Source: Streptococcus sp. S784/96/1
GTDB lineage: Bacteria; Bacillota; Bacilli; Lactobacillales; Streptococcaceae
Assembly (NCBI RefSeq): GCF_902729355.1
Contig: NZ_CACVCC010000001.1
Location: forward strand, 1 to 64,000
DNA: 64,000 nt
Direction: 5' to 3'
In this document: positions 50,449 through 64,000 of the stretch, in pieces
How the letters are laid out: every line of letters begins with the position of its first letter
How positions within the stretch are numbered: position 1 is the stretch's first letter
Program-made: the position numbers and the translations under genes
The notes under the pieces: generated by a model
Told to the model about the DNA's origin: nothing
Database searches by the model: none
What the model saw: only the letters and a program-made list of their open reading frames with translations

Positions 50449-50487
50449 AAAAAGCATCAAGCATATATGACTCGCTTGATGCTTTTT
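50449..50487. terminator. Bidirectional terminator
   Basis: Perfect 14-bp arms AAAAAGCATCAAGC / GCTTGATGCTTTTT (50449-50462, 50474-50487). Runs of A and T on both sides let it serve the GH43 remnant and the minus-strand AraC gene, whose stop lies inside it. Confidence 0.9.
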
Positions 50488-51436
50488 AGACATCTTGTTG
50501 CATCAAATTTCGGTAATGTTTTGGGGTGATGAGATACTTTTCCTTGAATCGTTGATAGAAATGACTGGAACTTTCATATCCAATAAGGGTGGCGATATCA
50601 TTGATAGGTATCGTTGTATTGGCAAGGTAGTCTTGGGATAGGGCAAGCTTGCTGTCAACGATATGCTCGGCGATGGTTTTTCCGGTTTCATTTTTGATGG
50701 TTCTGGATAAATAGCTGGCGCTGTAATTGAGTTGCTTAGCCAAGTTTTTTTGACTGATTAGTTGAGGGTTTTCTTGGATAAGTTTCAGACATTTTTCAGT
50801 TAAAGAGCTCAGCTTTTTCTTTAAAACAAAGGATTTCTGAAGAGAAAAAGAGTGAATGACTTGTAAAAATTGGCCGATAATAGCTAAATCAGTCTTGTGA
50901 AGATGGCTGATAAAAGCTGATAAAAAGGTCTCTAGTTGTTTTAGCTGAGAAGAAGTTAGGTTGAGAATTCGGATTTCCGTTAGGAGATGCTGATTTGGAT
51001 TGTAATCCAGTATCAGTTTAGCGAGATTGGAATGAATGAGGATGTCTATAATTTCAGGTTTTTCCTCTTCAATAGGGGCAAGTAGGTGCCTTGTCTCTTC
51101 AGGAATGATTGCCATCTGACCTGGAGTTAGGACAAAAGGTTGTTTGTTGATAATGTGAACCAGACGTCCTGAGACCAAGAAGCTCAGTTCAACATAATCA
51201 TGGTAGTGTAGGCGAGTAGGAAAATCCAGTTTGTTGTAGACCATACCGATGTGCTGATTAGCATCAAGGTTGATACCGTCTAGGATTTCTGCCATGGTGA
51301 TTTTATTTGCCCGTTCATTTATCTTGCTAAAGGGCATAAAATCATCTTCATGATAGGTATAGAGTTCAGATTTTGTAATAGCTTCTAAGGTATTTCCAAA
51401 AGATGGCAGCTTATTGAGAAGATTTTTTGAGAGCAT
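50486..51436 (-). CDS. AraC-family transcriptional regulator 4
   Basis: A 316-residue regulator with cupin sensor (LHYHDYVELSFLVSGRLVH) and AraC domain (ISQKNLAKQLNYSASYLSRT; PINDIATLIGYESSSHFYQRF). Divergent from the MFS-GH78 genes at 51573-55054 and the likely activator of that pair. Confidence 0.9.
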   Translation of the reverse strand: MLSKNLLNKLPSFGNTLEAITKSELYTYHEDDFMPFSKINERANKITMAEILDGINLDANQHIGMVYNKLDFPTRLHYHDYVELSFLVSGRLVHIINKQPFVLTPGQMAIIPEETRHLLAPIEEEKPEIIDILIHSNLAKLILDYNPNQHLLTEIRILNLTSSQLKQLETFLSAFISHLHKTDLAIIGQFLQVIHSFSLQKSFVLKKKLSSLTEKCLKLIQENPQLISQKNLAKQLNYSASYLSRTIKNETGKTIAEHIVDSKLALSQDYLANTTIPINDIATLIGYESSSHFYQRFKEKYLITPKHYRNLMQQDV

Positions 51437-51572: not shown

Positions 51573-52760
51573 ATGAATCTCAAAACAAAAATTGGTGTTG
51601 TCAGCATGGTATCAATGAACCTATCTGGGGTCGTTGTTGGCTCTGCAATTGCTGCCATTGGACAGTCTTTTCCAGATCTTCCCATTTCTACGGTACAATT
51701 ACTGACGACTTTACCTGGACTTGGGTCTCTTCTTATTACGCTTATTGCAGGTCAATTGGCGCTGAAAATTTCTAAAAAGACTTTGTCCTTACTAGGGATA
51801 GCTTTGATTACCCTTGGCGGTTTATTGTCTTCTTTTTCTAATAGTTCTATTACTGTTATGATGCTTTGATCTATAATATTAGGGGCAGGGCTTGGTTTTG
51901 TCACAACAATTAATCCCATGTTGGTTTCAGAATACTTTGACGGTGAGGAACGTTCAAGTGTATTAGGAATGAGTACTGGCGTCACTTCTTTAGGAGGGAT
52001 GGTTTTAATGGCGTTGGGAGGACTACTTGGCATGTCCGACTGGCGAAAACTTTATTGGGTTTATGGTATGGGTATAATAGTTTTTTTCATCATCCTTATT
52101 TGCCTACCAATGGATAAGGTAGAAGAAAATCAAAAACAGTTTGCAAAGAAACAGAGCTCTTTTGTGATAATGATCAGAGAAATAAATCCTTATACTGTAA
52201 TTGTTTATTTAGCAATTTTTGCAATGGTTTTAGCTATTAATGCCTACATGATAAATTTATCCTTAGTAATTTATAGTCAAGGTATCGGAGATACAGCTGT
52301 GACAGGTCTAGTGAACGCCATTGGAAGTGTGGGAGGAATCATAGCTGGATTTGGATTTTCTTTTATTCGTAAATGGACAAAACCAAATACCCTTGCTTTT
52401 GGCTTTATATGTGAATCTTTAGCTTTGGGGTTAACTTATGTTTCAAATAATATGTTTCTCTTAATTTTAGTAGCTATTCTTTCAGGCATTGGTATGGTAG
52501 CGGTTATGGAAAGCTCACCATTTCTTTTATCAATGTTGTCTAAGCCTCAAGATATTCCTATTGTTATGACAATTTTTGCTTTTATTAATGGGCTAGCAGG
52601 TGTTTTAGCTCCTAAAATTATTAGTGGTTTAGGGGTACTTACGGGTTTACCAAGTTTATTATTTGGTTCAATGCTCACGTTAATTGTAGGAATTGTATTA
52701 TTTACGATAAAGTTTGGAAAAAAAGCTGAGAGCGGTGCTCTTTTACAGAATAATAAATAA
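51573..52760 (+). pseudogene. MFS transporter interrupted by a stop codon
   Basis: A 396-codon frame encoding a 12-helix major facilitator protein, broken by one TGA at 51867-51869 (codon 99). Reading is in the same frame on both sides (TVMML stop SIILGAGLG). The stop stands where MFS proteins usually have an Arg at the start of helix 4, so a CGA-to-TGA change is likely. A downstream restart at 51918 would give 280 residues without the first helices. Transport function is probably lost unless the stop is read through. Confidence 0.88.
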
Positions 52761-52769
52761 GGTGGAAAA

Positions 52770-55054
52770 ATGAAAAATCAAGAGTCAAAATGGACAGGTC
52801 ATTGGATTTCAGCAGAACATGCGCGTGTATCAGAAGAACCAGAATTTACATTAGAGGAGATGTTTTCTGGGAAGTTACGTCCACAGGAGCCTGTTGAAAA
52901 AAGGTTACATCCGACAGTTTATTTTAAAAAGAGATTTCAACTTAATAAAAAAATAAAAAATGCAAAGTTAGTGATAACAAGTCAAGGAATCTATCAAGCC
53001 TATCTTAATGGTCATAAGGTAACAGAGGCTATTTTTACACCAGATTATACGGAGTATCAGGATTTTCTGATGTACCAAACTTATGAAGTAAGAGACTTAT
53101 TACAAGTAGGGGAAAATATATTAGCTATTGAAGTGGCTGATGGTTGGTATGCTGGCGCATCAGTGTTCAGGGAGGAAGTGCTCAATTTGGCAATCAATTA
53201 GCGCTATTAGCTGACTTAGAGGTGACCTATCAGGATGGAGAGAGGTTGACTATAGGCACGGATGAATCCTTTAGCTCAGGAACTGGTAAACATGTTTATG
53301 CTGATATTCAAATCGGAGAGAAACAGGATTTGCGTTTGGACAATAATTGGAAGACGAATTTTCAAGATTTAGATGAAACGGTTTTTGAAATTAGAGCTGA
53401 CTATGCTCGATTAACTGAACAAGAAGGTCCTGTAGTCTTTCGTAAAGAAAGTCTTTCAGCGCAAAAAATCTGGAGAGAAGGAAATCATTTAATCGTTGAT
53501 TTTGGTCAAGTCATTGCTGGTCGTGTCCGATTGAAAACTTACTTGGCAGAAGGTCAAGAAATTAGCCTTGAGCACGCAGAAGCTTTGAATGAAAGCGGAC
53601 TATTCTTTAAAAATATTGTGGGCAGAAATAAGGATGCCACAGACATTTTTATAGGGCGTGGGCAGGTAGAGTGTTTAGAGCCTGATTTCACTTTCCACGG
53701 TTTTCGTTATGTGAAAATTTCAGGGATAAATGAGCTGGACTTAGCTGATATAGTCGCAGTTGCTATTTACTCAGATATGCCAGTAACAGGAAAGCTAATG
53801 ACCAGTGATGATAGGGTTAACCAACTTCTTTCTAATATCCTGTGGAGTCAAAAGGGCAATATGTTGTCCATTCCGACAGATTGTCCTCAGCGGGAGCGGG
53901 TCGGATGGACTGGTGACATGCAGGTTTTTGCGCCAGCTTCAACTTTTTATTTAAACACTAATGCCTTTATCCAACGCTGGTTGAAAAATGTTCGGATTGG
54001 TCAACATGAGAATGGTGAAGTTGTGGACTATTCACCGACACCAAAAGATGCCAAAGATTCGTCCTTCACGGGCTCTTATTCATCCGCAGGTTGGGGGGAT
54101 GCTATTATCATGGTGCCTTGGACACTTTACGAGCGCTTCGGAGATAAAAAGGTCCTTGAAGACAATTATGAAGCTATGCTCAAATGGTTTACCTATGCGC
54201 AGAAAAGTGCGGCTGGTGATAAAAAAGGCGATGCTCGCTACATTTGGGATACCAAGTTCCACTATGGTGACTGGATGTTTCCGAGTTTCATGATGACCGA
54301 TCCTGCCCCCATGCGAACAGCGGAGGTTACAAAGGATTTGGTGGCGACAGCTTTTCTTGCCCATTCGGCAGAGCTTTTGGCAGATATTTCTGAGGTTTTG
54401 GGAAAAAGCGGAGCAGATTGTCGTGATTATGCGAAAAAAGTCAAGTCAGCCTTCACCCAATATTTTGTGACCAGAGAAGGAAAATTGATTGCAGATTATC
54501 AAGGTTGCTACGTCCTAGCGCTAGCTTTCACGATGGTTCCTAAAGTTCTGGAAAATCAGCTACTAGCCCAGCTTGTACAAAAGATTAAAGATAATGATAA
54601 TCGCTTGGACACAGGATTTTTATCGGTTCCCTACCTATTGGATGTCTTGTGTGAGTATGGTCAAGAAGAATTAGCAAAAACAGTCTTCTTCCAAGATGCT
54701 TGTCCATCCTGGTTCTATGAAATTAACCAAGGTGCTACAACGATCTGGGAGTCTTGGGCAGGCATTCAACCTGATGGGACAGTAGGCACCTTCTCTTTTA
54801 AGCATTATGCTTTCGGTTGTGTTCTGGATTGGATTATTCGTGAAACGGTTGGACTCAAAATCCTAGAACCAGGCTACAAAGCTATCCAAATCAAGCCATC
54901 GTTGGAAATTGTTGAGGATTTTGAGATGACTTATCAATCAGTTTCGGGCCAAATTTGTATTTCAAAAAGGAAAAGAGAGTGGGTAGTGACAGTTCCGAAA
55001 GAAATTGATGTGGAAATTGATTTGAGTCGAGTAGGTGGCTTTTTAAAGGGGTAA
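52770..55054 (+). pseudogene. GH78 alpha-L-rhamnosidase, copy 4, frameshifted
   Basis: Two overlapping frames (52770-53201 and 53144-55054) together give a 761-residue rhamnosidase (GHKVTEAIFTPDYTEY; DCPQRERVGWTGD; GATTIWESWAG). The shift falls near 53154-53158 (GGCGC), best explained by loss of one C from GGCCGC (Ala-Gly-Arg). The active-site loop lacks one Asp seen in copies 1-3. Shortest of the four copies, without helical tail. It lies 10 bp after the broken MFS gene, so the module appears to be decaying. Confidence 0.88.
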
Positions 55055-55181: not shown

Positions 55182-56570
55182 ATGGAAAATAAACAGCCAA
55201 AAGAAAAATTAGATGGTAAATTTGCCTTCTTCCATGCCACATCGGTTAGTGGTACTGCCATGATGATTGCAGCTATTTTGGGAAGTTACTTTAGTATTCA
55301 TTTAACTGACACAGTTGGCTTAACTGCGACATCGGTAGCTTTGCTGATGACAATTTCAACATTTTGGGATGCCGTTAATGATCCAATGATGGGATTGATT
55401 GCTGACCGTACTAAGACCAAATGGGGTCGTTATCGCCCGTACTTCGTTCCAGCGCCAATTTTCTTGACTATTTTTGCTGTTATGCTTTGGCAAAATCCTG
55501 GCCTTGGTCAAAATGGTAACTGGTGGTACTTCTTGATTGCTTACATCGGCTATCAAATGACAGTAACCATGTACACCATGCCTCAAATGTCAGTATTACC
55601 AGCACATGTTAAAAGTGACGCTCTTCGTAATAAGGTTATCGGCTATGGTGCAAGTGCAACAGCCATTATGTTTACAGTAGGTTCTTCCTATGCAAATTCT
55701 ATTAAAGGATTTTTAGGAAATCTTTTTGGAGTATCAAATGGTTGGGTACCGCTTATGCTTATCCTCGGTGCTCTATCATGCGTATCCTTCTGGGGACTAT
55801 TTGCAACAGCTAAAGAAAAATTTATTGAACCACTGCCAGACCGTCCAATGTCTCAGGACTTGAAACGCATTTTGAAGCACAAAGAGTTATCTCCATTCAT
55901 CATTGTGTGGATTATGGCTTCTATGGGATATGGCTTAATGTTTGCGACTTCAGTTTTTTATGTGATGTACTATCTTGCCCGTCCTGATCTTATTGAAACT
56001 TACATGCTTGTAGTATCTATGGGTGCTTTGGTGTCAATGGTTGTTCTACTTCCAATTTTCTTGCGTGTCTTTAAAACTGGTCAACGTGCTTTGACAGTGT
56101 CAGTGATTAGCTCATCAATTTGCTATGCTTTACTATTCTTCTTTGGAAATAGTAACTTTATTTTCCTATGTGTTGTTACCTTTATCGCTACAGCACTTGC
56201 TTCTATGCAAAATGCTCTGGTTAACGTTCTTGTTAATGATGCGATTGACTATGTTCAATTTACAGAAGGTATTTCAGCAAACGGCGTGATTTCTTCTATT
56301 AAAGGTTTTGCTCAAAAAATGGGTAACACTGTATCAAACTCATTGCCACTTTTCCTTCTTGGTCTTGTTGGTTATGTAGCCGGTGCTGTTGGGCAACAAA
56401 ATGAAGCAACACTATTTGTTCTGAACTTTATGAGATTTGGAGCACCAATTATTACAGGACTAATCATGTTGTTCTGTTTGCGATTTAACCCAGTTGAAAA
56501 ACATTATGATGATATTCAAACAATGAAATCAATGATTCGTGACCATTCAGATGATAATCACGAAGCGTAA
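55182..56570 (+). CDS. GPH-family sugar:cation symporter 3
   Basis: A 462-residue, 12-helix GPH symporter with FWDAVNDPMMGLIADRTKTKWGRYRPYF. Codon use looks close to that of highly expressed genes (mal-like), unlike the AT-richer neighbours. It precedes the GH2 gene with a terminator-like hairpin between, and probably imports the galactoside or glucuronide for that module. Ribosome site AAGGAG. Confidence 0.9.
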   Translation: MENKQPKEKLDGKFAFFHATSVSGTAMMIAAILGSYFSIHLTDTVGLTATSVALLMTISTFWDAVNDPMMGLIADRTKTKWGRYRPYFVPAPIFLTIFAVMLWQNPGLGQNGNWWYFLIAYIGYQMTVTMYTMPQMSVLPAHVKSDALRNKVIGYGASATAIMFTVGSSYANSIKGFLGNLFGVSNGWVPLMLILGALSCVSFWGLFATAKEKFIEPLPDRPMSQDLKRILKHKELSPFIIVWIMASMGYGLMFATSVFYVMYYLARPDLIETYMLVVSMGALVSMVVLLPIFLRVFKTGQRALTVSVISSSICYALLFFFGNSNFIFLCVVTFIATALASMQNALVNVLVNDAIDYVQFTEGISANGVISSIKGFAQKMGNTVSNSLPLFLLGLVGYVAGAVGQQNEATLFVLNFMRFGAPIITGLIMLFCLRFNPVEKHYDDIQTMKSMIRDHSDDNHEA

Positions 56571-56713: not shown

Positions 56714-59128
56714 ATGAAACAAGAACTTTATAACGACAATTGGTTATTTTGGAATGACGGAGATTCTTTTGCTTTAGTTTGGAATGTTCCTGAAAAAGCT
56801 AAGTCAGTGACACTTCCACATGATGCGATGCTAGAAGAGAAACCTTACGCAGAGAGTAACAATGGTGGGAATACTGGTTTTCGAGATGGTGGCAATTATG
56901 TCTATGTCAAAACCTTTAAAGCTACTGAAGCTGATTTGGAGCAACGCCTTGTGTTAAAATTTGAAGGTTCTTATATGAATACCTTTGTCTATGTCAATGG
57001 GCAATTGGCTGGTAAACATCACAATGGTTATACAACTTTCTATGTTCCTATCCATGATTTTTTACAAGTTGGGGACAATGAAATCCGTGTTCAAGTCCGT
57101 AATGGTGCTATGAGCAATAGCCGTTGGTATTCTGGAAGTGGGATTTACCGTGATGTTTACCTCTTGCGCAGTCAGGAACTTCATGTGGCTGCCAGCGGTA
57201 GCCGTGTTGAAACGATGGATGTGAGTGATGATTTAGCAACGGTTAAAATGACGGTTCCTCTGGTGAATGAGAGCAGTCGAGCAAGAACTTTCAATCTTGT
57301 TTTACGTATTAAAGATGATCAAGGGCAATTGGTTCAGCAAGATTCTCGTCCATACTTTATCAAAGCTGGTGAATCTTCTGATTTGGTTACCTCACTTGTT
57401 ATTGAAAAAGCTCAGCTATGGTCAGCTGACTCTCCTTATCGTTATCAGCTAGAAGTTGATGTGACAGAAAATGATCAATTGATTGACTGTGATAAACAAA
57501 CCTTTGGTATTAGGACAATTACTGTTGATAGTAAGCGTGGTTTGCGTATCAATGGAAAGACTGTTAAGTTGCGTGGTGCTTGCATTCACCATGACAGTGG
57601 CCTTTTAGGAGCAGCAACTTACTTAACTGCTGAGAAACGTCGTGTTCGTCTCCTCAAAGAAGCAGGATTCAATGCGATTCGTATGGCTCACCATCCAGCA
57701 GCCCCAGCTTTACTAGAAGCTTGTGACGAGTTGGGACTTTATGTGATGGATGAAACATTTGACATGTGGACGCGATTTAAGGGAGATTTTGATTATAGTC
57801 TTGTTTTTGAAGAAAATTGGCGTAAAGATGTATCAGCTATGGTTTTAACGGATTTTAATCACCCAAGCGTGATTCTTTACTCAATTGGTAATGAAATTCC
57901 TGAAATCGCTACCAAACACGGAGCTCATCTAGCTAAGGATATTCATGACCATATCAAGTCTCTTGATTCTACACGACCAACTCTTGCAGGGATTAACGGA
58001 GTCTTTGCTTCTAGTGATGGCATTCCTCAAATCTTGAGAGATGTGGTTGCTGAAAAAGAAGCTAAAGGTGAGGAAGTGGTCGGAAATGTCAACGACTTCA
58101 TGTCCATGATGGATACCAGTATGGATCAAATCGTTGTCCATCCTATTGTTTCTGAAAATCTGGAGAGGGCTACAGCAGCAACCGACATTGCAGGTTATAA
58201 CTACATGACTGCCCGTTATGCCTTGGATGCGGTTAACTACCCTAATCGCGTGATGGTTGGTAGTGAAACTTATCCGCCAGAGATTGCTCGAAACTGGGAG
58301 GTTATTCAGCAACTACCAAGTGTTATCGGTGACTTTACATGGACAGGCTGGGATTATATCGGAGAAGCTGGTGTCGGAGTTCCTGCTTATAATTGGGGAG
58401 AAGGAGGTTTTGGAGCTCAGTTCCCTTGTCAATTAGCCTACTGTGGAGACATTGATATCACAGGTGAACGCCGTCCGCTCTCTTACTATCGTGAGATTGT
58501 GTTTGGTTTGCGAAAAGAACCTTATATTGCGGTGCAAAAACCCGAGCACTATGGTAAAAAGCTTATCAAGACACCATGGGTTTTATCAGATGCGGTTCAT
58601 TCATGGACTTGGTCTGGTCACGAAGGACAACCTATTGTCGTCGAAGTTTATGCGGCTGGTGATGAAGTAGCTCTATACCTAAATGATGAATTACTTGCTA
58701 AACAATCTGTTGGTCAAGATCTTGGATGTTTGACCACGTTTGAAACGATTTATCAGGCCGGAGAATTGAAAGCCGTCAACTACCTCAATGGTGAAATCAT
58801 TGCAGAGCATGTTTTAGGCACAGCAGATGAGAGCAGTGCTCATTTAGTGGCAGAAGTTGAGGAAAATGCTGATTTAACTTATGTGCGTTTTTCTGTAGTT
58901 GATGCCAGTGGTATGGTTATCCCGTCAGTTGAACAAGACCTGCATATTGAACTTGAAGGCGCTAAATTACTTGGATTTGGTACAGGAAACCCTAAACCAG
59001 AAGAACACTACCTAGAGTCAAATACAACAACTTATTATGGTCAAGCTCTAGCGATTCTTCAAAAAACAGAAGATTTAGCCAAAATGACAGTTTCGGGTGA
59101 GAACCTTAACCTTGATGTTAATATTTAG
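56714..59128 (+). CDS. GH2 glycosidase (beta-galactosidase type)
   Basis: An 804-residue cytoplasmic GH2 enzyme: sugar-binding domain (1-155), immunoglobulin-like domain (about 160-270), catalytic barrel (275-600), then a DUF4982-like domain and a C-terminal beta domain. Acid/base Glu394 in YSIGNEIPE and nucleophile Glu518 in VGSETYPPE. Beta-galactosidase is most likely, though this subgroup also includes other beta-glycosidases. The ribosome site is weak (CAGGT, 12 nt away). Heads a module with MBL, DUF1593 and nucleoside-hydrolase-like genes. Confidence 0.9.
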   Translation: MKQELYNDNWLFWNDGDSFALVWNVPEKAKSVTLPHDAMLEEKPYAESNNGGNTGFRDGGNYVYVKTFKATEADLEQRLVLKFEGSYMNTFVYVNGQLAGKHHNGYTTFYVPIHDFLQVGDNEIRVQVRNGAMSNSRWYSGSGIYRDVYLLRSQELHVAASGSRVETMDVSDDLATVKMTVPLVNESSRARTFNLVLRIKDDQGQLVQQDSRPYFIKAGESSDLVTSLVIEKAQLWSADSPYRYQLEVDVTENDQLIDCDKQTFGIRTITVDSKRGLRINGKTVKLRGACIHHDSGLLGAATYLTAEKRRVRLLKEAGFNAIRMAHHPAAPALLEACDELGLYVMDETFDMWTRFKGDFDYSLVFEENWRKDVSAMVLTDFNHPSVILYSIGNEIPEIATKHGAHLAKDIHDHIKSLDSTRPTLAGINGVFASSDGIPQILRDVVAEKEAKGEEVVGNVNDFMSMMDTSMDQIVVHPIVSENLERATAATDIAGYNYMTARYALDAVNYPNRVMVGSETYPPEIARNWEVIQQLPSVIGDFTWTGWDYIGEAGVGVPAYNWGEGGFGAQFPCQLAYCGDIDITGERRPLSYYREIVFGLRKEPYIAVQKPEHYGKKLIKTPWVLSDAVHSWTWSGHEGQPIVVEVYAAGDEVALYLNDELLAKQSVGQDLGCLTTFETIYQAGELKAVNYLNGEIIAEHVLGTADESSAHLVAEVEENADLTYVRFSVVDASGMVIPSVEQDLHIELEGAKLLGFGTGNPKPEEHYLESNTTTYYGQALAILQKTEDLAKMTVSGENLNLDVNI

Positions 59129-59212
59129 AGACATTTAAAAAGGTCAGTATTAAATTAAACAATATAAATAGTAACGAAACTGTGATTTTTTATTGAATTG
59201 AAAGGAGTTAAT

Positions 59213-60079
59213 ATGAATCCGTTAGAAGTATTTGCATCCTATACAGCATACCAATTGAAAGAACGAACTTGGGTGATTCAATTCATGGGAGGGAGTCAAC
59301 ACATTTACCTTCTAGAAGGGGATGAACAAGCTCTACTTCTAGATACTGGTTATGGTTCAGGGACTTTACGAGCTTTTGCTCAAACTTTAACCACTAAGCC
59401 TTTGATTTGTGCTAATACGCATTTTCATCCTGATCATTCGTCTGGAAACGGGGAATTTGAGGAAGTTTTGGTAAACTCTGGCTATGTTGATGATGAACCT
59501 TCTGTAATGAATAATACAGGTCCGTTTGATATTACAAGGTTACCCTTTCCTCACTATCGCAAAAAGTTGATTGAGGCAGGTGATGTTATTGATTTAGGAA
59601 ATCGTCAGTTGAAGTTGCTGGAAGTTAAACCTGCGCATTGTAATTCATCGCTCTTTTTCTTTGATGAGGGAGAGCGGATGATGTTTTGTGGAGATGAGAT
59701 GGAATCAGCTCAGGTATTGTTACTGGAAAATTCGCGTAATCCTAAAATGGCTGATTCTTATGACATTAAAGAGCGTCTGTTGAATTTTAAGGCTAATACG
59801 GAACTACTACTATCCTACCAAGACCAGTATGATTACCTCCTTCCAAATCACAATGGAGGGCCGATTGCGAAAAGTTATTTACAAGATTACCTTGATTTAG
59901 TGGACGGTATTTTTGCAGGAACGGTTACGATTGAAGATAGGCTGAACCACCGTTTTATTGAAATGGATCCTCGTTCAGCGACCTTTTGCCGTATTCGTTA
60001 CGGTAAGGGAAGCATTATCTTGGTCAAAGATGACGTGTTAAAAGTATTTGGTACTGGTTTGGAGAATGGTGATGAATGA
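59213..60079 (+). CDS. MBL-fold metallohydrolase linked to GH2
   Basis: A 289-residue metallo-beta-lactamase-fold protein with NTHFHPDHSSG (HxHxDH metal site near residue 70), a later His in VKPAHCNSS, Asp in FCGDEMES and His in LPNHNG. A different subgroup from the MBL gene at 47169. ATG 59213 follows AAAGGAG. Cytoplasmic, substrate unknown. Its end overlaps the DUF1593 start by 8 bp, so the two are coupled. Confidence 0.85.
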   Translation: MNPLEVFASYTAYQLKERTWVIQFMGGSQHIYLLEGDEQALLLDTGYGSGTLRAFAQTLTTKPLICANTHFHPDHSSGNGEFEEVLVNSGYVDDEPSVMNNTGPFDITRLPFPHYRKKLIEAGDVIDLGNRQLKLLEVKPAHCNSSLFFFDEGERMMFCGDEMESAQVLLLENSRNPKMADSYDIKERLLNFKANTELLLSYQDQYDYLLPNHNGGPIAKSYLQDYLDLVDGIFAGTVTIEDRLNHRFIEMDPRSATFCRIRYGKGSIILVKDDVLKVFGTGLENGDE

Positions 60080-61547
60080 CATGAAAAAACTAAAATTACG
60101 TACGGTAGTGACAACAGACGGTGAAATCGACGATATGGATTCGTTTATTCGATTCCTGCTTTACAGCAATGATGTTGATGTTGCTGGTATCATTTTAACG
60201 TCGTCGATGTTTCATTACCGAGGAACAGCAGAGAAACCCGCTTATCGTTGGACTGGGGAGACTTGGATTCCAGAGTTGATTGCTAAATACGATCACGTTT
60301 ATCCAAACCTTATGAAACACGATCCAACTTTTCCAACTCCGGAGTCCCTATTATCGGTTTATCGCATTGGGAATGTTGATGATGTGAGTGATATGACTGA
60401 GGAGACAGAAGGTTCTAACTTTTTAGCAGATCTTATACTGGACGATGATGATAGGCCCTTATACATTCAAACATGGGGTGGGACAAATACAACTGCCAGA
60501 GCCCTGAAATCTATTCAAGAACGTTATGAAGGAACCGCAGATTGGGACACGATAAAGAAAAAGGTTGAGGATAAAGTCGTTCTCTACATTATTCTTGATC
60601 AAGATGGGACCTATGGCGACTATATTTCAAAGAATTGGAATATTAAGACACTTAATGATAGTTTGAATTTTGGGTATTTTGCTTATGGTTGGAAAGGATT
60701 GCCAGAGGCTTTTCGGGCAAGTCTTAATGCTGACTGGCATCTGACTCATTTGAAAAATAAGGGACCGCTGCTAGACCAGTATGCTCTTATCGGTGATGGC
60801 TATTACCTGGAAGGAGAAGTTGAGTCTGAGCAGTTTGGGCAACAGGCCTGGTTAAATCAACATCCAGATTATGAGGCCTATGACTTTATTTCTGAAGGCG
60901 ATTCGCCGTCATATTTTTACCTTTTGCAGACTAGTTTGAGGGGATTTGAAAACCCAGGTTTTGGTGGCTGGGGAGGTCGTTTTAGGGAGATTAGTCCAAA
61001 TACATTTACGACGAATCAGACGATTGACTACAATCCTTATACCAAACGTTTTGAGCAAGAGTACAGTCTTTACCGCTGGATTCCCGATATCCAAGCAGAC
61101 TTAGCCGCAAGAGCGCAGTGGTGTATTACGGATGATTTTAAGTCAGTGACCCATTATCCGCAGGTAAAAGTAGCAAAAAAAGATATCCAAGCTGAACCTG
61201 GCCAAATCATAACCTTGCAAGCAAAAGCAAGTGATCTCAATGGGTATAGTCTTAATTATCATTGGTGGTGTTACCATGAAGCCTCTTCCTACTGGGATTT
61301 TAGTAACCTTGAGTTAGAATCAGATGTTTTTCGCTTAGGAGATATGGATCATGTGTCCTCGTGGCATTCTAAAGAAATGGAAATAGATTGGGCATTGCCT
61401 TTGACTGGAGAAGATACGCCAGTTGTGCAATTTACGGTACCAGAAGATGCGAAACCTGGTCAAACATTGCACATGATTTTGGAGGTATCAAATGTAGCAG
61501 ATTTACCCTTGAAAACCTATGAGCGTGTGATTGTGACGGTGAAATAG
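60072..61547 (+). CDS. DUF1593 protein (nucleoside-hydrolase-like, Sde182 type)
   Basis: A 491-residue protein. Residues 1-330 form a nucleoside-hydrolase-like domain with VTTDGEIDDMDSF as the Asp-rich metal loop. Residues about 365-490 form a beta-sandwich of the type seen at the end of Sde182-like proteins. Members occur in polysaccharide-using bacteria and are often secreted; this one has no signal peptide. Biochemical function is not established to my knowledge. The start at 60072 is set by GGAG at 60061. Confidence 0.85.
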   Translation: MNDMKKLKLRTVVTTDGEIDDMDSFIRFLLYSNDVDVAGIILTSSMFHYRGTAEKPAYRWTGETWIPELIAKYDHVYPNLMKHDPTFPTPESLLSVYRIGNVDDVSDMTEETEGSNFLADLILDDDDRPLYIQTWGGTNTTARALKSIQERYEGTADWDTIKKKVEDKVVLYIILDQDGTYGDYISKNWNIKTLNDSLNFGYFAYGWKGLPEAFRASLNADWHLTHLKNKGPLLDQYALIGDGYYLEGEVESEQFGQQAWLNQHPDYEAYDFISEGDSPSYFYLLQTSLRGFENPGFGGWGGRFREISPNTFTTNQTIDYNPYTKRFEQEYSLYRWIPDIQADLAARAQWCITDDFKSVTHYPQVKVAKKDIQAEPGQIITLQAKASDLNGYSLNYHWWCYHEASSYWDFSNLELESDVFRLGDMDHVSSWHSKEMEIDWALPLTGEDTPVVQFTVPEDAKPGQTLHMILEVSNVADLPLKTYERVIVTVK

Positions 61548-61562
61548 AAAGGATGTGTTGTC

Positions 61563-62495
61563 ATGTTTGAAAAATTAAGTTATCAAGTCCCTGAAAGTCG
61601 TAAAGTGCGTTATATTATCCATTCAGATTGTAAAAATGAGGCAGATGATCAGTTTACAGTAGCGCATTGCCTATTGACACCAAGATTTGAGGTAAAAGGA
61701 CTTATTGCTGCTCATTTTGATAAAAATTATGGACGTTATCCAGCAGGCACGTCTGCTAAAGCTAGTTATGATGAGCTAGTTAAAGTGTTAGAGGTAATGG
61801 AACTAATTAGTCATTATCCCGTTTTACTAGGGGCAGAGCAGGCAATGGTAGATGAACAGACGCCAATTTTATCTGAAGGGGCACAGTTCATTATTGATGA
61901 AGCGATGAAGGATGATGACCGTCCTCTTTATATCGGGATGCAGGGATCTTTGACAGATTTAGCGTCAGCTATTTTATTAAAACCTGAAATTTGCCAAAAA
62001 ATGACAGCGATTTGGATTGGTGGAGGGAGTTACCCAGACGGTGGCTCTGAATTTAACCTGATGCAGGATGTCCATGCGGCCAATGTTGTTTTCCAATCTG
62101 ATATGCCCTTATGGCAGGTTCCAGCTAATGTTTATAAGCGTTTTGCAGTGTCAATGGCAGAGCTGGAATACAAGGTAAAACCTTATGGTAAATTAGGGAA
62201 TTATCTTTTTGAAGAATTAACAGAACTCAATATGGCTTTAGGAAAACAAATGCCAGATTTTGATTGGCCACATGGTGAGATTTGGGGGCTAGGAGATGAA
62301 GGTGTCGTAGCTGCCCTTATGCAGGAAAATCAACGTACAGATCTTTATACCAAGGTACCTGCTCCCAAAATTAATTTAGAGACGATGAACTATGAACCGA
62401 ATCCTGATAATCGCCTTATAAGAATCTATAAAGATATGGATACTCGATTGACGCTTGAAGATCTCTTCTGTAAAATAGCCCTATTTGCAAAATAA
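61563..62495 (+). CDS. Divergent nucleoside-hydrolase-fold protein
   Basis: A 310-residue protein with the inosine-uridine hydrolase fold: IIHSDCKNEADDQFTVAH replaces the usual DTDPGIDDA loop but keeps the Asp-Asp pair, and QGSLTDLASA and NLMQDVHAANVV match later active-site positions. It starts 15 bp after DUF1593 with AGAAAGGATG. It may cleave an unusual glycoside rather than nucleosides, as inferred from context and loop divergence. Confidence 0.8.
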   Translation: MFEKLSYQVPESRKVRYIIHSDCKNEADDQFTVAHCLLTPRFEVKGLIAAHFDKNYGRYPAGTSAKASYDELVKVLEVMELISHYPVLLGAEQAMVDEQTPILSEGAQFIIDEAMKDDDRPLYIGMQGSLTDLASAILLKPEICQKMTAIWIGGGSYPDGGSEFNLMQDVHAANVVFQSDMPLWQVPANVYKRFAVSMAELEYKVKPYGKLGNYLFEELTELNMALGKQMPDFDWPHGEIWGLGDEGVVAALMQENQRTDLYTKVPAPKINLETMNYEPNPDNRLIRIYKDMDTRLTLEDLFCKIALFAK

Positions 62496-62629
62496 TGGAT
62501 GGTTGATGAAAGTTGAATCAGTATAGCGTTGGAATAGATGGGGAATAGTTACATTAGTCTAATGTTTGCTAATAACCATCTATATCCATTTTAATAATCA
62601 TGATTAGAAAGAAGTTTAAGGAAGGTATC

Positions 62630-64000
62630 ATGAGAAATATTAAAGAAATCGTCTCCCAATTAACATTGGAGGAAAAGGCAGGTCTTTGTTCAGGACAGGA
62701 TTTTTGGCATACTAAAGCAATTGAGCGTTTAGGAATTCCTAGTTTAATGCTGAGTGATGGTCCTCATGGCTTACGTAAACAAGATCAATCAGCAGATCAC
62801 TTAGGAATCAACGATAGTATCAAGGCTGTTTGTTTCCCAGCGGCTTGTGCTACGTCAGGGTCGTTTGATCGAAATCTATTGCAACAAATGGGAGAAACTT
62901 TAGGCAATGAATGCCAGGCAGAAGATGTTTCGGTTATTTTGGGACCAGGTGTTAATATTAAGCGTTCGCCATTGTGTGGTCGTAATTTTGAATATTTTTC
63001 AGAAGATCCTTACCTAACAGGAGAATTAGCAACGGCTTTTGTTAAAGGTGTGCAATCTCAAGGAATTGGAACAAGCCCTAAACATTTTGCTGCTAACAAT
63101 CAAGAGTATCGTCGCATGAGCATTTCTTCCCAAGTAGGGCAACAAGCTTTACGTGAAATCTACCTTTCTGCTTTTGAGACAATCGTAAAAGAGGCTCAAC
63201 CTAAGACTATCATGTCTTCATATAATCGCTTAAATGGTGTCTATACCTCTCAAAATGAGTGGTTGTTAACAGATATCTTGCGAAAGGAATGGGGATTTGA
63301 AGGCTATGTTGTTTCTGACTGGGGTGCTGTTGACGATCGCGTAAAAAGTCTTGAAGCTGGTTTGGAGTTAGAAATGCCTAGCTCAAATGGCATCAATGAT
63401 ACAAAGTTAGTAGAAGCTGTGCGAGCAGGTCTTTTAGAGGAGAGTGTCTTAGATTTAGCGGTAGAACGTCTATTAACTGTGACTTTTGATTATATTGATC
63501 ATCGCAGAGCAGTCACTTGGGATAAAGAAGCGGATCATGCAGTTGCTAGACAGATTGCAGAGGAATCAGCAGTGCTACTTAAAAATAGTGGCATTTTACC
63601 ACTTTCAGCTAGTCAAAAAATTGCTTTTATTGGTGAGTTTGCTAAAAAACCACGTTTCCAGGGTGGTGGTAGTTCTCATATTAACAGTTTCAAAGTGACA
63701 AATGCCTTAGATGAAGCAAACAAGGAAACTAAAATTATCTATGCTCAAGGTTACGATGTGACGGAGCAAACAGATGATGTCAAATTAAGAACCGAGGCTG
63801 TTGAAGTGGCTCAGAACGTTGATGTTGCTGTACTTTTTATTGGACTACCAGACAGTTACGAGTCAGAAGGTTATGACCGTACTCACATGAGCTTACCACA
63901 AAATCAAACGGACTTAGTAGAAGCTGTTACCGCAGTACAGCCTCATACCATTGTCGTTCTTTATAATGGTTCTGCGGTGGAGCTTCCGTGGGCTGATAAA
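62630..64000 (+). CDS. GH3 beta-glucosidase (partial, cut by window end)
   Basis: At least 457 residues of a classical GH3 beta-glucosidase, open to the window edge. EEKAGLCSGQDFW and LMLSDGPHGLRKQ at the N-terminus, KHFAANNQEYRR, and nucleophile Asp in VVSDWGAVDDR. No signal peptide. ATG follows GGAAGG. Different architecture from the two short GH3 enzymes at 31-38 kb. It continues the GH2 module. Confidence 0.92.
   Translation, partial: MRNIKEIVSQLTLEEKAGLCSGQDFWHTKAIERLGIPSLMLSDGPHGLRKQDQSADHLGINDSIKAVCFPAACATSGSFDRNLLQQMGETLGNECQAEDVSVILGPGVNIKRSPLCGRNFEYFSEDPYLTGELATAFVKGVQSQGIGTSPKHFAANNQEYRRMSISSQVGQQALREIYLSAFETIVKEAQPKTIMSSYNRLNGVYTSQNEWLLTDILRKEWGFEGYVVSDWGAVDDRVKSLEAGLELEMPSSNGINDTKLVEAVRAGLLEESVLDLAVERLLTVTFDYIDHRRAVTWDKEADHAVARQIAEESAVLLKNSGILPLSASQKIAFIGEFAKKPRFQGGGSSHINSFKVTNALDEANKETKIIYAQGYDVTEQTDDVKLRTEAVEVAQNVDVAVLFIGLPDSYESEGYDRTHMSLPQNQTDLVEAVTAVQPHTIVVLYNGSAVELPWADK

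Follow-up and report, generated by a model that had tools for sequence, protein, structure and literature searches.

The locus considered here raises a simple question: what do two proteins of the nucleoside hydrolase superfamily do among genes for glycosidases? The two proteins, one of the DUF1593 family and the other of the IU_nuc_hydro family, are encoded side by side in Streptococcus sp. S784/96/1, near the end of the window, i.e. the whole stretch of 64,000 nucleotides that was analysed (contig NZ_CACVCC010000001.1, positions 1 to 64,000). A preliminary description regarded these genes as part of a five-gene module of unknown chemistry and suggested that nucleoside hydrolase folds had been recruited to cleave unusual glycosides. 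The genomic context supports this suggestion and sharpens it, as the sugar is probably D-apiose. We propose that the island very probably serves apiose-bearing glycosides and, judging from context and fold, we lean towards the view that the DUF1593 protein releases apiose as a beta-D-apiofuranosidase. In this proposal the context points to the sugar and the fold to the chemistry. The five genes, belonging in part to glycoside hydrolase (GH) families, are as follows:

56714-59128, + strand: GH2 glycosidase with DUF4982 and GH2_C5 domains (PF02836, 8e-25)
59198-60079, + strand: MBL-fold hydrolase (PF00753, 1e-14)
60072-61547, + strand: DUF1593 / Sde182_NH-like protein (PF07632, 6e-62; PF21027, 6e-17)
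61563-62495, + strand: divergent IU_nuc_hydro protein with a DCKNEADDQ loop (PF01156, 1e-18)
62600-64000, + strand: GH3 glycosidase, running beyond the window and ending at C1:64891 (PF00933, 2e-41; PF01915)

All five are open, stand in the order first described and have Pfam support. The open reading frame (ORF) of the DUF1593 protein is open over 60048-61547, and the in-frame ATG at 60072 gives an 8 bp overlap with the MBL gene; a gap of 15 bp then separates it from the IU_nuc_hydro gene. This tight packing suggests that the three genes share one transcript. A promoter scan gave 32 sites versus 36.3 in shuffled sequences and a terminator scan 9 versus 9.9, i.e. no excess of either.

Genomic context of the DUF1593 protein

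The bounds first given for the module, 56714-64000, are correct for the five genes, but they leave out a GPH symporter, a split GH78 gene and an AraC gene, as well as the decisive genes located after position 64000. It is for this reason that the label of unknown chemistry, confined to the window, had to be abandoned in part: the neighbouring genes include an operon of AptAB/AplK type and a gene resembling apiosidases, and these telling genes lie about 2-11 kb past the window end, on the same contig:

65211-66245, - strand: LacI
66437-67270: transketolase, N part (46.6% identical to E. coli AptA)
67260-68207: transketolase, C part (35.6% identical to E. coli AptB)
68209-69645: fucose-isomerase-like protein (PF02952, 0.0002, under the cut-off)
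ending at 71104: FGGY kinase (37.3% identical to AplK over 488 amino acids)
71285-72535: esterase
72608-73612, - strand: AraC
73753-75045: PF13204 'Apiosidase-like' protein (1.8e-88; PDB relatives 8t9w, 'Apiosidase', and 3kzs/5msy)
after the PF13204 gene: phosphotransferase system (PTS) EIIBC, nearest to beta-glucoside transporters
76488-79010: GH106-like protein

By similarity, these downstream genes look like a D-apiose operon. The D-apiose cluster is reportedly to be credited to Carter et al. 2018. In Escherichia coli SE15 it contains aptA, aptB and aplK, and strains of E. coli and E. fergusonii bearing such a cluster grew on D-apiose, according to PMC13001218. The split transketolase and the FGGY kinase are common to the SE15 cluster and the streptococcal operon. 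As annotated, the SE15 cluster differs in possessing an ATP-binding cassette importer and two short-chain dehydrogenase/reductase oxidoreductases, and in having no isomerase, glycosidase or DUF1593 gene; the missing isomerase is also mentioned in PMC13001218.

In terms of pairwise identity, the split transketolase is nearer to AptA and AptB than is the housekeeping transketolase of the same strain (30.4% over 253 residues and 31.1% over 119, respectively). The FGGY kinase by itself proves little, since both this protein and AplK are near glycerol kinases: TIGR01311 scores are 502 and 495 bits, respectively, the leading NCBIfam models are common to both, glycerol kinases match the streptococcal protein equally, and FGGY kinases are hard to separate by sequence. 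The isomerase scores 88 bits against a sulfoquinovose isomerase model with a cut-off of 700. We consider the fucose-isomerase-like proteins of AptAB/AplK-type operons (L018, 5355-6761; L113, 6210-7646) to be candidate D-apiose isomerases.

The association of DUF1593 with such operons extends well beyond this strain. Searching the genome collection with an alignment of DUF1593 proteins yielded 375 confirmed relatives; the best 80 loci were kept, a set biased to close relatives (L071, L081 and L083, with no DUF1593 ORF called, are still counted). A transketolase pair is located within 10 kb of DUF1593 in eight of these loci (L016, L018, L024, L040, L046, L053, L059, L090), and all of them except L040 also have the isomerase within that distance. 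Seven isomerase loci compare with a chance expectation of about 0.013, a figure which assumes the isomerase in 10 of 398 genomes (10 others of 398 Bacillota, at least 45% identity) and genomes of 3 Mb. The genera concerned are Enterococcus, three Bacillaceae, Lucifera and Kluyvera. In three Enterococcus loci the gene order is isomerase, the two transketolase genes, FGGY, DUF1593, MFS and ROK, followed in two (L018, L024) by GH1; the E. pallens operon has this full order, and its GH1 exceeds a 6-phospho-beta-glucosidase cut-off. In Lucifera, DUF1593 lies between the transketolase and FGGY genes and is followed by an E. coli-like binding protein, ATPase and permease, and in Kluyvera relatives of these three precede DUF1593 and then a PF13204 gene. 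In all, three loci (L040, L059 and L090) have relatives of the importer components encoded in the E. coli apiose cluster, namely the binding protein, the ATPase and the permease.

In a tree of 75 rows (430-720 amino acids, above 300 bits, duplicates removed), apiose-linked DUF1593 proteins occupy four places, and 6 label changes are forced. Four rows (window, L013, L087 and L215) owe their apiose-linked label to an isomerase in the genome, not to one within 10 kb: in the window's genome the isomerase is 6.7 kb from DUF1593 (the PF13204 gene about 12 kb), and in the other three it is farther away or on another contig.

Three further observations were made among these loci. In L017, L055, L063 and L068 a DUF1593 protein with a secretion-signal-like start follows PTS genes related to the PTS gene of the streptococcal locus, with GH1 in two and, upstream in three, a gene that we take to resemble an antiterminator; perhaps the glycoside is trimmed there outside the cell before PTS uptake. 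Limosilactobacillus gorillae and a Phoenicibacter metagenome-assembled genome (L014, L015) have equal ORF lengths around DUF1593, which indicates transfer or contamination. A stop codon interrupts the DUF1593 stretch of Erysipelatoclostridium An173 (L037, 10001-11449), i.e. a broken gene or a sequence error.

Within Streptococcus (284 genomes) the isomerase was found in 4, a DUF1593 match in 12 and a PF13204-type protein in 6 genomes, and all 4 isomerase-bearing streptococci carry both of the latter. The co-occurrence of isomerase and DUF1593 gave Fisher values, ancestry ignored, of 4.7e-7 for the 9 genomes with intact DUF1593 (by reading; G078, G084 and G102 were omitted as fragments) and 1.9e-6 for all 12. 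The neighbourhood is conserved beyond this strain: GPH, GH2 and DUF1593 occur together in 6 streptococcal genomes, in 5 of them with MBL. Among the neighbourhoods compared, all five genes were observed together in just two, those of the strain under study (G000) and of S. moroccensis (G139), where GH3 consists of two ORFs. A truncated DUF1593 copy, in which the EGD motif reads ERD, was noticed in S. moroccensis (L213, 9498-10259) right after the FGGY gene of the apiose-type operon, the position it has in Enterococcus.

Fold, conserved residues and proposed reaction

The DUF1593 protein is a two-domain protein with no evident signal peptide, 90% identical to an S. porci protein. Its membership of PF07632 (210 bits, cut-off 26.8) and of Sde0182_C, PF21027 (62.4 bits, cut-off 27), is clear, and the Pfam scan returned these two families alone, with no PF13204 match. 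The AlphaFold2 model (pLDDT, the model confidence score, 89.2) has a nucleoside hydrolase fold and a beta-sandwich as in 2yhg, its nearest structure: Z 35.6 and root-mean-square deviation 2.3 over 379 residues, spanning residues 6-490 (VIA-align). The nucleoside hydrolase 1mas ranks after it (Z 17.6), and in Foldseek no nucleoside hydrolase other than 2yhg is among the 50 matches listed.

Counting residues from window base 60075, D15, D19 and D20 are kept in 75 of the 76 alignment rows (one gap) and align with the motif of 2yhg, and W134, N138, D177, D241 and D276 are invariant in 76/76. A smaller alignment, A3, holds 32 of 41 sequences (omitted were L037, which has a stop in translation, and L056, L066, L072, L073, L076, L078, L084 and L085).

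The protein in 2yhg is Sde_0182 of Saccharophagus degradans (PF07632 and PF21027), which has the same two domains and matches the DUF1593 protein over the whole chain; its metal-motif aspartates align with those of DUF1593 (HMMER), with a loop two residues longer. Sde_0182, whose structure paper dates from 2011, keeps Ca2+ and does not cleave purine or pyrimidine nucleosides; it has been described as a possible module for interaction with furanoses (PMC8910321). According to the same source it carries carbohydrate-binding domains in front and has no assigned activity; its streptococcal counterpart, in contrast, is encoded beside a D-apiose-type operon. The inosine-uridine nucleoside hydrolases (PF01156; 1mas, 1yoe, 6ba0) have the fold and the last Ca-binding Asp in common with both proteins of the window. 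The differences are the changed fingerprints, TTDGEIDD in DUF1593 and DCKNEADD in IU_nuc_hydro, and a Gly in place of a His; the EFN motif is retained in IU_nuc_hydro. The PF13204 apiosidases (5msy/3kzs, 8t9w), which we take to be GH140, would catalyse the reaction proposed for DUF1593, the release of apiose, and belong to an unrelated family.

Based on these observations, we interpret the locus as an island for the intracellular utilisation of apiosides. Small plant glycosides would enter through the GPH symporter, and inside the cell enzymes of the GH2, GH3 and, where intact, GH78 families, together with esterases, would trim them, the families being evident from the sequence and the substrates presumptive. 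The DUF1593 protein would then cleave terminal beta-D-apiofuranosyl residues by means of its nucleoside hydrolase fold. Beta-D-apiofuranose has a cis-2,3-diol, as does ribofuranose, with the hydroxymethyl group on C3 instead of C4. Because the diol is common and the hydroxymethyl group has moved, a nucleoside hydrolase freed of base protonation and of the 5'-hydroxyl contact could become an apiofuranosidase. The Ca2+ ion of nucleoside hydrolases is bound by the ribose hydroxyls O2' and O3', and a remaining water attacks (PMC8910321); given this chemistry and the conserved residues, a bound Ca2+ in DUF1593 may grip the furanose 2,3-diol while an activated water attacks. Such a role would also explain why Sde_0182 has retained Ca2+ without cleaving nucleosides.

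The released D-apiose would be converted to apulose by the isomerase, to apulose 4-phosphate by the FGGY kinase and to xylulose 5-phosphate by the split transketolase, the last two steps being assigned by similarity to AplK and AptAB; these are the intermediates that we presume for this operon. The neighbouring PF13204 protein would be a second, unrelated apiosidase candidate, and the IU_nuc_hydro protein would add another furanosidase, acting perhaps on apiose or on ribose.

The second candidate, the IU_nuc_hydro protein, is less certain. It belongs to PF01156 (68.5 bits, cut-off 34.2), its AlphaFold2 model (pLDDT 80.5) has the nucleoside hydrolase fold, and all 50 Foldseek matches listed are nucleoside or riboside hydrolases. 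D22, D28, D29, D245 and the EFN motif are kept in 8/8 sequences, and this motif aligns with known nucleoside hydrolases. The divergent loop reported earlier is real, the sequence reading HSDCKNEADDQ, and departs from the DxDxxxDD fingerprint. In an ungapped comparison with 3g5i, Lys occupies the place of the second fingerprint Asp; in a weak profile alignment with DUF1593 (probability 10.7%) the loop is instead two residues longer. A Gly-Asp pair, also present in DUF1593, aligns with the His-Asp of 1mas and 1ezr, so that the group I His before the last Ca-binding Asp is replaced. The altered fingerprint, whether by Lys or by a longer loop, and the Gly for His make catalytic competence less sure. 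Release of apiose by this protein is possible and rather doubtful, and the Lys seen against 3g5i makes it less likely.

Among the 284 Streptococcus genomes 7 have a match to this protein, namely the strain itself, G139 (69%) and five at 26-34%. Two relatives stand in tandem beside apiose-type operons in Sediminibacillus, Aquibacillus and Gracilibacillus. Another, 43% identical and with a DAKNEADDQ loop (G396), is found with a PfkB kinase, RpiA, a sugar-binding protein and LacI, a ribose-like context; its neighbourhood (L208, 12745-19827) also has a ureidoglycolate-lyase-like gene and is perhaps a ribofuranoside operon. A weak isomerase match near it was set aside, being a Fucose_iso_C protein that adjoins an FGGY kinase beyond other genes.

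Alternatives and opposing observations

A number of observations weigh against our proposal. The motif of DUF1593, TTDGEIDD (TxDxxxDD), lacks the first Asp of DxDxxxDD. In 72 of the 80 loci there is no transketolase pair within 10 kb, many of these encoding Paenibacillus proteins with a lipobox-like start, and two of the four places in the tree, the Lucifera and Kluyvera rows (L090, L040), are long branches. The isomerase is missing from five of the nine streptococci whose DUF1593 is intact: G188 (S. porci), G115, G163, G020 and G243. The E. pallens relative of the isomerase has no PDB relative at E 0.01, and the IU_nuc_hydro relative of G396 lies in the ribose-like setting described above. 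The reverse test was also negative: none of 11 further Bacillota genomes that encode a related isomerase (35-59% identity; best 11 of 83 genomes with any match, own genome excluded) has PF07632, and 3 of the 11 have PF13204; the idea that DUF1593 is obligatory for an apiose operon was accordingly rejected. In five of the 11 (G625, G366, G567, G510, G629) the isomerase is accompanied by neighbouring transketolase and FGGY genes; in the remaining six the isomerase may have a different role, as these genes are absent from its side. Finally, G021 (L223) has GPH-MBL-GH2 and a PF13204-type gene without a DUF1593 or isomerase match, and since this core exists without DUF1593, the latter is an accessory to it.

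The genome already encodes a PF13204 protein, and the target of DUF1593 may consequently be a different sugar in the same glycosides. It is conceivable, if unlikely, that within an apioside island PF13204 alone frees apiose and that the DUF1593 and IU_nuc_hydro proteins cut other furanosides, such as beta-ribofuranosides or arabinofuranosides. The PF13204-type protein of every isomerase-bearing streptococcus, the ribose-like context of the G396 relative and the EFN motif of IU_nuc_hydro agree with this. However, DUF1593 is associated with apiose-type operons in four separate parts of the tree, and in the stretch searched around the three Enterococcus loci, beyond which those genomes were outside the search, no PF13204 relative was found. 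Another sugar altogether, with apiose wrong for the whole island, is improbable: the isomerase resembles named enzymes only faintly, as the sulfoquinovose isomerase score illustrates, but the split transketolase and the kinase resemble AptAB and AplK, a PF13204 gene is near, and the importer components of the E. coli cluster have relatives in L040, L059 and L090.

We give an equally low probability to the idea that DUF1593 is a non-enzymatic furanose-binding or accessory module, as has been proposed for the nucleoside-inactive Sde_0182 (PMC8910321). Against it stand the two-domain structure without an evident signal peptide, the position within catabolic operons and the five invariant residues from W134 to D276. 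Moreover, the binding modules of glycosidases are normally secreted. The notion that both proteins are ordinary nucleoside hydrolases serving salvage draws on the PF01156 match and the fold, and was rejected as very improbable. As first described, no nucleoside transporter, phosphorylase or deaminase was found, the scan covering ten proteins of 50.4-64 kb with Pfam, and the scanned neighbours as a whole include no nucleoside genes; the Gly-Asp pair replaces the group I His in IU_nuc_hydro and recurs in DUF1593, and Sde_0182 lacks nucleoside activity. It should be added that some active non-standard nucleoside hydrolases also lack this His (this and the Sde_0182 result are taken from PMC8910321).

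Extending the apiofuranosidase proposal to the family, we put forward, tentatively and with less than even confidence, that the PF07632 proteins form a new family of glycoside hydrolases, namely beta-D-apiofuranosidases derived from the nucleoside hydrolase fold and using the 2,3-diol common to ribo- and apiofuranose. Intracellular members would feed apiose operons, secreted ones would strip apiose before beta-glucoside uptake, and the DCKNEADDQ proteins would represent a second, independent recruitment.

Other genes of the region and significance

Upstream of the five genes, the window contains:

50486-51436, - strand: AraC-family regulator, divergent from the cluster (PF12833, 2.8e-17; PF02311, 1e-4)
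51573-52760, + strand: MFS transporter gene with an in-frame stop (ORFs 51573-51869 and 51918-52760; PF07690 on the second)
52770-55054, + strand: GH78 alpha-L-rhamnosidase gene in two frames (ORFs 52770-53201 and 53144-55054; PF08531/PF05592/PF17389)
55182-56570, + strand: GPH-type sugar symporter (PF13347, 1e-55)

The interrupted MFS gene and the split GH78 at 51573-55054 reflect decay or a sequencing error in this strain; GH78 is a single ORF of 762 amino acids in S. moroccensis and of 770 in S. suis, and in S. suis L087 a 400 amino acid relative of the MFS gene adjoins it. The GPH symporter scores 206 bits against TIGR00792, under the cut-off of 231. The nearest NCBIfam model of GH2 is GalB (460 bits, cut-off 900), which gives no subtype, and full-length GH3 is nearest to NF041610, an exo-alpha-(1->6)-L-arabinopyranosidase (864 bits, cut-off 1300). 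A second plant-glycoside gene set occupies 25078-50076, with three more GH78, two GH43, two GH3 N-domain proteins, two GPH symporters, three AraC regulators, a ROK kinase, a BD-FAE esterase and a second MBL protein that clusters with the one of 59198-60079.

As a guess, saponins or acylated flavonoid apiosides would be fitting substrates for the rhamnosidase (broken in this strain), the arabinopyranosidase-like GH3 and the esterases. Platycosides bear apiose-xylose-(acetyl)rhamnose-arabinopyranose at C-28 (PMC9952785), and substrates of this kind might match the enzymes of the island.

Apiose catabolism, the PF13204 apiosidases and the nucleoside hydrolase fold are already known, and the proposed novelty is the link between PF07632 and apiose. 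The literature search found neither this link nor, in the titles and opening lines of abstracts screened, an apiosidase of nucleoside hydrolase fold, an absence of little weight, as few subscription papers and no preprints were covered; it also found no reaction assigned to PF07632, for which an apiofuranosidase role would be a simple and testable answer. If true, the proposal would establish a new glycoside hydrolase family and add an N-riboside fold to the O-glycosidases. It would also name enzymes stripping apiose from flavonoid apiosides and saponins (apiin, licorice apiosides, platycosides), and a review of platycosides does call for narrow-specificity apiosidases (PMC9952785). Moreover, the proposal would hint at the way in which the rare plant sugar apiose becomes available to some streptococci, enterococci and bacilli.

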